Below are positions 8,525-16,045 of a stretch of 37,748 bases of DNA, piece by piece. Below the pieces are notes generated by a model. That model saw only the letters and a list, made by a program, of their open reading frames with translations, searched no databases and was not told the origin of the DNA. This stretch comes from a virus. The stretch lies in IMG/VR virus record IMGVR_UViG_3300046689_000119, positions 1-37,748 of that record. One strand, 5' to 3'. The stretch's first letter is position 1; every line of letters begins with the position of its first letter. The position numbers and the translations under genes are program-made.

Positions 8525-8702
8525 CTGCGGGAAAGACGCACACACGTATCACGGCGCGCGGGAGGTCATCAAGAAAATGACCATGAAGGCCCGCAAGCAA
8601 GGCCGCACCGCGCGCAGTCAGAAGCCCTACAAGTGCCCGTGGGGAAACCATTGGCACACAACATCCCATAGCTACAAAACACCCAAGAGAGAAGCAGCGT
8701 AA
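8508..8702 (+). CDS. Small zinc-ribbon-like protein (64 aa)
   Basis: This basic 64-residue protein has [11 protein letters not shown] near the start and [11 protein letters not shown] near the end, with a helical Lys/Arg-rich centre. This resembles short actinophage proteins with a C/H-rich Y-x-C...WH end. It overlaps the bet gene end by 17 nt and abuts ssb by 1 nt. Its role is unknown; its position inside the recombination operon suggests DNA binding. Confidence 0.6.
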
Positions 8703-13839: not shown

Positions 13840-13875
13840 TACACCTTATTTCGCAAACAGTTGCACTTCGTTTCG
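13840..13875 (+). promoter_or_regulatory. Two 14-bp motif copies 22 bp apart
   Basis: TACACCTTATTTCG (13840-13853) and TGCACTTCGTTTCG (13862-13875) share orientation and are 22 bp apart, two helical turns. The second overlaps the -35 element of the promoter. They match the motif set at 864-1244 and 11248-11284. Confidence 0.55.
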
Positions 13876-13890
13876 TTTTTAGGGTATGAT
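13861..13890 (+). promoter_or_regulatory. Promoter before leaderless minigene
   Basis: TTGCAC (13861-13866) and TATGAT (13885-13890) have an 18-bp spacer. An ATG lies exactly 6 nt after the -10, at 13897. It is one of the best matches to the consensus in the window. Confidence 0.7.
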
Positions 13891-13896
13891 GAAATC

Positions 13897-13908
13897 ATGA
13901 TGGAATAA
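13897..13908 (+). other. Three-codon leaderless minigene
   Basis: ATGATGGAATAA begins at the predicted transcription start of the 13861-13890 promoter. It encodes Met-Met-Glu. A terminator hairpin begins 10 nt after its stop. It may be a chance ORF or a leader-peptide switch. Confidence 0.3.
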
Positions 13909-13918
13909 CTATCCATTG

Positions 13919-13948
13919 AAAGAGCCTCCAGGAATGGGGGCTCTTTTT
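13919..13948 (+). terminator. Intrinsic terminator/attenuator
   Basis: An 11-bp stem pairs 13919-13929 with 13936-13946, has a 6-nt loop, and ends in a T run at 13944-13948. It lies about 22 nt after the predicted start of the transcript and before the gene at 13972. It could attenuate that gene or close the upstream operon. Confidence 0.8.
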
Positions 13949-13971
13949 CATGCCCGGATGAAGGAGCAGTC

Positions 13972-14133
13972 ATGACGGCTTGGGGTTTGCGCAGTAAGGG
14001 CGGAATCGTCACTGAGGCGCCCAACGAGATCAAGGCGCGACACTGGGCCGGCTACGACTTCAAGGCACGCATCGGCGACGTAGGCGAATACCTCGTCAAG
14101 CAGGACGAACCAGGCGAATGGGTTGAGGCGTGA
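13972..14133 (+). CDS. Small hypothetical protein (53 aa)
   Basis: ATG 13972 has AAGGAG 6 nt upstream. The product begins MTAWGLRSKGGIVTEAPNEI. Its second half (DFKARIGDVGEYLVKQDEPG) reads as a small beta-rich domain. The end overlaps the next GTG by 4 nt. It lies just after a terminator hairpin, so expression may need readthrough or antitermination. Confidence 0.55.
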   Translation: MTAWGLRSKGGIVTEAPNEIKARHWAGYDFKARIGDVGEYLVKQDEPGEWVEA

Positions 14134-14318
14134 AAAGGTACACCCACACCCCGGCGCACCCTGACGTGGTCGCTGGCCTGAATGATGCGGCGGTCCTGTC
14201 CCAGTTGGCGGAGCGGATTGACACGCTCATCCCCGAGCCAAGGACGCACACCGCTCAGCAAGCCCTCATCACCGCCCGAGTCGCACTCTTGGCGGCGGTG
14301 AAGGAACTCACCCCCTAG
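14130..14318 (+). CDS. Small helical protein (62 aa)
   Basis: GTG 14130 overlaps the preceding stop. The product has helices DVVAGLNDAAVLSQLAERI and TAQQALITARVALLAAVKEL. No domain is recognised. Its stop lies 2 nt before a 14-bp stem that opens a long non-coding region, so the mRNA 3' end may be structured. Confidence 0.55.
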   Translation: MKRYTHTPAHPDVVAGLNDAAVLSQLAERIDTLIPEPRTHTAQQALITARVALLAAVKELTP

Positions 14319-14320
14319 AT

Positions 14321-14428
14321 TTGGTGCGCGTTGGTCAACACGATGTGACTCGTGATGTGGCCGTATGGGTCTTCCGCGGTTTCGTGAAGCCTACTCCGCT
14401 GCTTCGGAACGCTGCCAACGCGCACCAA
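14321..14428 (+). ncRNA. Candidate 108-nt four-helix structured RNA
   Basis: A perfect 14-bp stem pairs TTGGTGCGCGTTGG (14321-14334) with CCAACGCGCACCAA (14415-14428). It encloses three smaller hairpins: CACGA/TCGTG (14339-14343 with 14350-14354), GG-CTTC/GAAGCC (14368-14374, one bulge, with 14386-14391), and TCCG/CGGA (14395-14398 with 14405-14408). Together they form a closed multi-branched, cloverleaf-like element. It is not a tRNA: there is no anticodon-arm or T-arm pattern and the closing stem is far too long. A small transposon-like element (14-bp terminal repeats) is the alternative, but no target duplication was seen. Confidence 0.45.
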
Positions 14429-14605
14429 CAGAATTGGTTCCGAGAATCGCTCTGACCGTTCCCCTTGCAGGGGTTAGAGGTTACCGACCGGACCGGCCCG
14501 AGCGTCCCACGTAGGTCTGCAAGCCTGCGATACGGGGCGTGTGATTTGTTTGGCGGTGCGAAACCGTCCATTCGGGCTTTCGGGGCGTGTCCTGCGGTCT
14601 TCGCC

Positions 14606-14737
14606 GTGGGGCGCGCCCCAATTACATACGTCCTTGAACGCCGTTGCGCCACGTGCCGCACGCAGCCAAGGAACGCACAACCGGCCAACGCCCAGGCAAA
14701 CCGGAAGCAAAACCAGGGCACCTTTTCACAACCGTAA
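14606..14737 (+). CDS. Possible small CxxC protein (43 aa)
   Basis: A GTG at 14606 opens a frame encoding MGRAPITYVLERRCATC and then an Asn/Gln-rich basic tail ending GTFSQP. Its stop is 15 nt before the phosphoesterase start. One CxxC pair and GC-rich third positions give weak support, but no ribosome site is seen. It may instead be part of a decayed gene or pure chance. Confidence 0.25.
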   Translation: MGRAPITYVLERRCATCRTQPRNAQPANAQANRKQNQGTFSQP

Positions 14738-14752
14738 GCAGACGGGAACACC

Positions 14753-16045
14753 ATGACGCGCTGTAAATATGGGTCCGCGATAGACGACCTATCCAAAGCC
14801 CAAGGCCACAAGTTCCTCGCTTACTCCGCAAAGAATGAAGACGGGCGCTACACCTACGGGTCGCGCCATGTTGCGGAACAGCTCGGCATTGGCAAGTCCA
14901 GCGTCAACGAACACCGCGCCGGGAAATGTGTTTGCTCCAAGGCTGAGGTGCCGGTCAACTCCGAGCTTCACCGCCCGGACGGTACAGCCGACTACGTGAC
15001 CATGAGCGAACGCGCGTGGGGCTACGAAGACTTCCGCCGGTTCATCGCCTCCAAGGGCCAGGATCCCGACAAGGTCACCTTCACGTGGGGAGTCACCAGC
15101 ACCCCGCAGGGCGGCTATTTCAACAAACTCAACAACGTCCGGCCTGTTGCCTCGGTTGAGGCCGGGTTGGAAGCCGTTGACCTGCCCGCACTGTACGCTG
15201 CGGCACGTCACGCGACCCCGAAGTCCACGCCGCCCTACCAGGACCGCGCCACGGTCATTGTGTGGGCGGATCCGCAGATCGGTAAGACCGGTTCGCGTGG
15301 CGGCACTGCTGAGCTGATCGAACGCTCCACGGTGATCCGTAAGAAACTGGATGAGCTGCTCGGTGAGCGGAACCCCTCGGCGATCCTCCTGGCTGATGCT
15401 GGGGACGGGATTGAGGGGTTTGAGTCCGGTGGCAACCCCATGTTCACCAACGATTTGAGCCTGTCGGGGCAACTCGACACGTACGGCACGGAACTGTTCG
15501 AGTACATCAACCTCGCCCACGCTTACGCGCCTGTCACGGTTGCGGGGATCCCGTCGAACCATGCTGCGTGGCGGTGCGGGAAACAGAACCTCGGACGCCC
15601 CAGTGACGACCTTGGCCTGTTCATGCACAAACAGGTTCAGAAGGTCACCGACGCAGCCAACATGGACGTCTCATGGGTGAAGCCGGCCGAGTATGACGAG
15701 TCCGTTGCTGTGGACTTCTACGGCACCCGCGTCGGCATTGTCCACGGTAACCAGTTCGGCCCGGGCCAGGCTGTCACGTGGTGGCAGAAGCAAGCCTTCG
15801 GTGCACAAGCCGCGGCTACCGCTGACGTCCTCGTGCATGGTCACTACCACTCGTTCTCAGCTTCGGTAGCTGGAAGGAACCCGCAGTCAGGCCGTCAACG
15901 GTACTGCCTCGGCGCACCCACCCTGGATAACGGCTCCGACTGGTTCCGGCAAGTCCAAGGCCGCGACAGTGACCCCGGCCTCATGGTCTTCGACGTCACC
16001 GAACAGGGTTTCGACCTGTCGTCGCTGACGATCCTCACCGCGTAA
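14753..16045 (+). CDS. HTH-calcineurin-like metallophosphoesterase (430 aa)
   Basis: An N-terminal helix-turn-helix (HVAEQLGIGKSSVNEH, about 38-55) is followed by a metallophosphoesterase domain (about 165-430). Metal-site blocks are WADPQIGK (DxQ replacing the usual DxH), LADAGDGIEGF, IPSNHAAWR (GNH-like), GIVHGNQ and VHGHYHSF. Actinophages carry similar proteins, often annotated as phosphoesterases or exonucleases. Phosphodiester hydrolysis of nucleic acid is likely but not shown. ATG 14753 has GACGGGA 6 nt upstream. The position before terminase suggests a late-switch or packaging-related role. Confidence 0.8.
   Translation: MTRCKYGSAIDDLSKAQGHKFLAYSAKNEDGRYTYGSRHVAEQLGIGKSSVNEHRAGKCVCSKAEVPVNSELHRPDGTADYVTMSERAWGYEDFRRFIASKGQDPDKVTFTWGVTSTPQGGYFNKLNNVRPVASVEAGLEAVDLPALYAAARHATPKSTPPYQDRATVIVWADPQIGKTGSRGGTAELIERSTVIRKKLDELLGERNPSAILLADAGDGIEGFESGGNPMFTNDLSLSGQLDTYGTELFEYINLAHAYAPVTVAGIPSNHAAWRCGKQNLGRPSDDLGLFMHKQVQKVTDAANMDVSWVKPAEYDESVAVDFYGTRVGIVHGNQFGPGQAVTWWQKQAFGAQAAATADVLVHGHYHSFSASVAGRNPQSGRQRYCLGAPTLDNGSDWFRQVQGRDSDPGLMVFDVTEQGFDLSSLTILTA

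Follow-up and report, generated by a model that had tools for sequence, protein, structure and literature searches.

Organization of the locus

The window is the whole stretch of viral DNA analysed here (37,748 nucleotides). The element under study occupies 108 nucleotides of its + strand between a small open reading frame (ORF) and the gene of an MRE11-like phosphoesterase. The main features of the locus are as follows.

13862–13949, + strand: probable late promoter (TTGCAC..TATGAT) and intrinsic-terminator-like hairpin, read by eye and from the fold
14130–14318, + strand: upstream ORF of 62 amino acids with a GTG start and a TAG stop (14316–14318), ending 1–2 nt before the RNA
14321–14428, + strand: structured RNA domain, a three-way junction of P1, P2 and P3; 85.6 bits with the covariance model R1, which was built including the window copy
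14753–16045, + strand: first downstream gene, MRE11-like phosphoesterase/exonuclease (PHROG 284)

The RNA stands at the head of a 434-base stretch (14319–14752) between the 62-amino-acid ORF and the phosphoesterase ATG at 14753. An earlier sequence-only reading had described this stretch as gene-free, which is correct for proteins, but the remainder holds further structured elements. A long, near-uninterrupted hairpin of about 17 bp with a CUUC loop lies at 14578–14625 (approximate positions). A second, small hairpin (14687–14716), just 5′ of the ribosome-binding site (RBS) hairpin described below, combines variable stems (GCCC/GGGC, GTCTC/GAGAC, GCAC/GTGC, GACC/GGTC and GCCGT/ACGGC) with a conserved loop like CCGGAAGCAMAA. 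This small hairpin also occurs in L018, L184, L004, L005, L023, L328 and L333, in L027, which lacks the RNA, and in the isolate Arthrobacter phages Seahorse (L002) and Phrank15 (L202). A candidate coding ORF at 14321–14455 (44 amino acids, TTG start) was rejected because its homologues shift frame through length changes.

The unit at 13862–13955 opens the late operon, 5′ of the small ORFs and the RNA, and an equivalent layout is present in L005, L006, L021, L027, L029, L204 and L333. It looks like a late promoter that is soon followed by a terminator, as in attenuation or antitermination. A consensus scanner called neither a late promoter nor a terminator at this place, and we infer both from inspection and folding.

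The position directly after a stop codon, which the sequence-only reading had pointed out in the window, is retained throughout the homologous loci. The gap between the stop codon and the RNA is 1–3 nt in 17 of the 19 loci, and 9 nt, measured from the end of the likely ORF, in the other two (L012 and L309). ORFs like that of the window precede the RNA in L005, L006, L008, L020, L022 and L026; different ones are found at other loci, so that the upstream ORFs are of several unrelated kinds. The downstream gene is MRE11-like in most loci and encodes other small proteins in L014, L184, L305, L328 and L333. The 37.7-kb virus record contains a single copy of the RNA, and the copies of its relatives always lie just after a stop codon; the suggestion of a tiny mobile repeat is therefore not upheld.

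Secondary structure and covariation

The fold of 14321–14428 has a minimum free energy of −48.8 kcal/mol (z = −3.65), and none of 200 shuffled sequences reached a value as low. It consists of the following parts.

14321–14334, + strand: 5′ strand of P1
14339–14386, + strand: P2 arm, with P2a (CACGA/TCGTG), P2b (CGTG/CGCG) and the hairpin P2c (GGCC/GGTC)
14355–14358 against 14372–14374, + strand: conserved internal loop of P2, ATGT against TTC
14388–14413, + strand: P3 arm, with P3a (AGC/GCT) and P3b (TCCG/CGGA)
14399–14404, + strand: apical loop of P3, CUGCUU, complementary to AAGCAG of the RBS hairpin
14415–14428, + strand: 3′ strand of P1

The closing stem P1 is a perfect 14-bp helix made entirely of Watson-Crick pairs, as had been read from the window. 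First-pass MAFFT alignments placed P1 and P2 wrongly; we therefore trimmed the sequences and aligned 12 canonical copies by hand, fitting them by eye, with the MAFFT alignment A5 as a tool control. In the hand alignment, canonical pairs fill 160 of 161 cells in P1, 52/52 in P2a, 44/45 in P2b, 43/46 in P2c, 40/40 in P3a and 41/41 in P3b. P1 varies in length from 12 to 15 bp among the copies and shows up to five pair types per position in the 12 copies, and L007 carries a paired 2-nt deletion, one on each side of the stem. Read on the + strand, P1 of the 12 copies includes nine G-U pairs and no A-C; therefore, the + strand transcript is the selected one. In P3, the sequence of the P3b stem is variable, while the loop is conserved.

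On A5, P1 and P2b together were paired in 96.4% of the cells, compared with 69.8 ± 2.8 in shuffles, and structures slid along the alignment were 25–58% paired. Double-change cells numbered 35, against 10.0 ± 2.4 in shuffles (0/500). The compensating base changes that had been proposed as a check are thus found in the stems, and the shuffle and slide controls agree.

The consensus consists of P1, a junction UNAA, a P2 arm with the internal loop AYGY/(U)UUC, and a P3 arm. The cloverleaf of the sequence-only reading gives way to a three-way junction. That reading had placed three hairpins inside the closing stem; enclosed arms do exist, but the comparative data support two of them, P2 (with its own terminal hairpin) and P3. 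In a shorter type of the RNA, the strands of the internal loop appear, as read by eye, in reversed order round a P3-like hairpin, ACC-UUUC-CCG-[CCGCUCAU]-CGG-AUGU-GGU. Judged from their sequence, the internal loop and the UNAA junction would be compatible with a receptor, and nothing more.

Relation to known RNA classes and distribution

Searches of the window and of six loci with Rfam 15 gave no match to the element, neither at the gathering threshold nor as a credible sub-threshold hit; the only hits were true tRNAs located elsewhere. ARAGORN likewise found no tRNA at the element in the window or at the same place in the relatives that carry the RNA. The element occupies the genomic slot of phage tRNA genes and is comparable to them in length, but it has no T or D arm and no conserved CCA. 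Moreover, it has only two arms, and its closing stem of 12–15 bp contrasts with the 7-bp acceptor stem. With the negative ARAGORN result, a tRNA or tmRNA was rejected. Titles and abstracts returned by literature searches on Y RNA/Ro60 and on mycobacteriophage small RNAs mentioned no counterpart. The compensatory changes and the results with Rfam and ARAGORN support the earlier description of an undescribed structured phage RNA, and it is very likely, close to certain, that the element represents a new structured RNA family.

The queries for homologues were the phosphoesterase, another downstream protein unlike it, and DNA patterns drawn from the element; a stem descriptor and the covariance model R1 were applied next. 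The covariance-model search, another check proposed beforehand, recovered homologous copies in related phages. In total, the RNA is present in about 20 viral records and in one prophage of Arthrobacter. The canonical copies are those of the window, L004, L005, L006, L007, L008, L012, L020, L022, L023, L026, L305, L309 and L328/L329; the shorter type is found in L014, L018, L184/L199, L190 and L333. The prophage copy lies in Arthrobacter sp. ES3-54 (L203), which indicates that the hosts are Arthrobacter-like. In a covariance-model search of about 1000 Micrococcales genomes, this prophage gave the only match with E ≤ 0.05. Short-type and L023-type copies had no match when compared by BLAST with sequenced phages, and many close relatives with an equivalent layout lack the RNA. 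The RNA is a rare phage element and not a host RNA.

Two other structured elements were observed in these genomes. Another long-stemmed RNA-like element, TTCCCCTGCT..AGCAGGGGAA, is located just 5′ of the MRE11-like gene in L030 (3820–3913) and in L204 (Leifsonia Root4 prophage). A GCCAU..hairpin..AAAUGGC motif with a variable inner hairpin is present in noncoding slots of L018, L027, L190 and L305, often 5′ of tRNA genes.

Complementarity to the downstream ribosome-binding site

The loop of P3 is complementary to a site in front of the first downstream gene.

14732–14745, + strand: RBS hairpin CCGU[AAGCAG]ACGG, predicted at −4.6 kcal/mol; its 3′ strand enters the Shine-Dalgarno sequence (CGGGA)
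14736–14741, + strand: AAGCAG, the site matched by the P3 loop, which lies 11 nt 5′ of the phosphoesterase ATG

When the P3 loop was compared with the 34 nt before the start codon, 5–7 complementary bases were found in all 16 loci tested, with L026 reaching 5 bp only. The per-locus shuffle P values range from 0.0016 to 0.05 and are not independent, since the loci are related. The + strand of the window contains 23 copies of AAGCAG, and one lies just before another start codon (8692–8702). A lone 6-mer is weak evidence at such a frequency, and the case therefore rests on the comparison among loci and on co-variation. Loop and site change together by class (CUGCUU/AAGCAG, UGCUCA/UGAGCA and CGCUCAU/AUGAGCG). 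The loop CUGCUU forms 6 bp with its own RBS class only and 3–4 with the others, and the loop CCGCUCAU forms 7 bp with L006 and L190. L328 (7 bp) and L333 (6 bp), which were found later with a different query, also match.

The stem of the RBS hairpin varies in sequence and stays paired, with G-C, U-A and C-G all occurring as its third pair in different phages. On its own, such a hairpin is weak (−2.5 to −4.6 kcal/mol). The distance from the RNA to its target site is 88–466 nt, and tRNA genes lie between them in some loci. A Shine-Dalgarno hairpin with the motif was absent from all 13 RNA-minus relatives examined; in two of them, L015 and L019, six bases match one loop class by chance. L332 has kept a UGAGCAG RBS hairpin with no recognisable RNA, and its noncoding slot opens with an apparent 3′ half of a tRNA. 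We also considered an ORF that would end at the UAA or UGA of the RBS loop and rejected it, because the upstream open frames are short or have no start in most loci. Overall, pairing between the P3 loop and the RBS is likely.

Proposed mechanism and alternatives

Sequence comparison establishes the fold, the strand, the adjacency to a stop codon, and the complementarity and co-variation of the P3 loop with the RBS loop. We consider that the RNA is probably a cis-acting leader that controls translation of the next (late) gene via a long-range kissing loop. It would make up the structured 5′ portion of the untranslated leader in front of the late operon's first gene. P1, placed against the upstream stop codon, would let P2 and P3 fold whatever the flanks, and its length and variable sequence would suit an insulating clamp that stays closed when a ribosome reaches that stop codon. 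The P3 loop would then kiss (5–7 bp) the loop of the small hairpin that has the Shine-Dalgarno sequence in its 3′ strand. We infer that this pair forms in the cell and holds the Shine-Dalgarno hairpin closed, resulting in repression, until it is released either by a ribosome that terminates at the neighbouring stop codon or by a factor bound to the conserved internal loop. The state of the leader would then govern, across a noncoding or tRNA island, how the next gene is translated. The effect may be repression or, alternatively, coupling or activation of translation. Regulation of the phosphoesterase and late genes by a leader had been among the earlier suggestions. The loop-to-RBS complementarity fits a leader, but the controlled gene is not a phosphoesterase in some relatives. 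An MRE11-like protein as a necessary partner was rejected because some downstream genes differ while the loop/RBS device is kept.

In some loci, excision of the tRNAs would sever the RNA from the mRNA, which counts against action in cis and favours a small RNA acting in trans. Such an RNA would be excised along with the tRNAs from the late transcript and would pair, in the antisense manner, with the RBS of late mRNAs, either its own or others. The slot shared with tRNA genes agrees with this, because processing would part the RNA from the mRNA, as do the conserved exposed loop, the stable, variable closing stem and the AAGCAG in front of another start codon. However, the site that the loop matches lies in every case at the first downstream gene of the same transcript, a constant position beside a stop codon would be needless in trans, and a promoter or terminator of the RNA's own was not recognised; we regard action in trans as unlikely. 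The same loop–RBS pairing might instead open or present the Shine-Dalgarno sequence, as in the IncI-alpha repZ leader, and couple translation across the island. Both the stop codon beside a structured domain and a loop complementary to the segment just 5′ of the Shine-Dalgarno sequence suit such an activating pseudoknot, and a precedent is described in PMC8383071 (section on RNA pseudoknot formation). Pairing with the loop of the Shine-Dalgarno hairpin would nevertheless leave its stem intact, so that clamping is an easier reading than opening, and activation by this route is doubtful.

Two further explanations dispense with the pairing. The RNA might be a translation-independent structural RNA (a moron-like noncoding RNA, a defence decoy or a packaging RNA), with the RBS match a coincidence kept by descent. 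Its patchy occurrence among relatives, its mosaic surroundings and the RBS motif of L332 would suit this idea. However, loop and RBS match class by class and the RNA-minus relatives are devoid of the Shine-Dalgarno hairpin motif, which makes it improbable. The place of the element after the promoter/terminator-like unit and before all late genes would also suit a cis-acting antitermination RNA of the PUT type, which would modify RNA polymerase as the late operon begins. Many close relatives of identical layout do without the RNA, and neither the loop–RBS co-variation nor the stop-codon adjacency would be explained; this is highly improbable.

Beyond the cis-acting leader, we tentatively suggest a wider role as a portable "translation bridge". 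An RNA abutting a stop codon may tie the RBS of the following gene to the end of the preceding one by a kissing loop, across an island of tRNAs or structured RNAs, and thereby keep the translational coupling or timing of phage operons. The proposed leader itself would be an example of long-range translational control by a kissing loop in double-stranded DNA phages, even across tRNA genes, and would offer an explanation of how translational coupling can persist in spite of phage tRNA islands. With an identifiable partner site and strong covariation, the function is testable by simple compensatory mutants.

Comparison with known systems

Like the PUT antitermination RNAs of HK022, the element is a structured RNA in a phage operon leader, but its fold differs and it is placed behind a stop codon. 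To our knowledge, PUT action involves no loop–RBS pairing. Translational riboswitches and ribosomal-protein leaders with loop-to-Shine-Dalgarno pseudoknots share with the phage RNA a junction domain, a conserved internal loop and an arm that reaches the RBS. In contrast to them, the phage RNA has no Rfam match, the distance from the domain to the RBS is long and variable, and the downstream gene is not constant.

In the leader of the IncI-alpha plasmid ColIb-P9 and its IncB and IncL/M relatives, repY and repZ are translationally coupled and a stop codon adjoins the structure. In the phage loci, too, a stop codon lies beside the structure, ending an ORF 1–9 nt before the RNA in all 19 loci; a like coupling would require that this ORF be translated. 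In the ColIb-P9 leader, as reviewed in PMC8383071, the loop of an upstream structured domain pairs just 5′ of the Shine-Dalgarno sequence, and this pairing activates. The loop of the phage RNA is also complementary to a site just 5′ of the Shine-Dalgarno sequence of the next gene. Unlike the plasmid leader, the phage device has no leader peptide of conserved sequence, its RNA folds into a complete three-way junction where the plasmid has a simple stem-loop, and its target sits within the loop of the Shine-Dalgarno hairpin. Moreover, the two show no sequence homology, the phage spacer extends up to ~470 nt and can hold tRNA genes, and the device precedes a late operon (MRE11-like or small phage proteins) rather than a rep gene.
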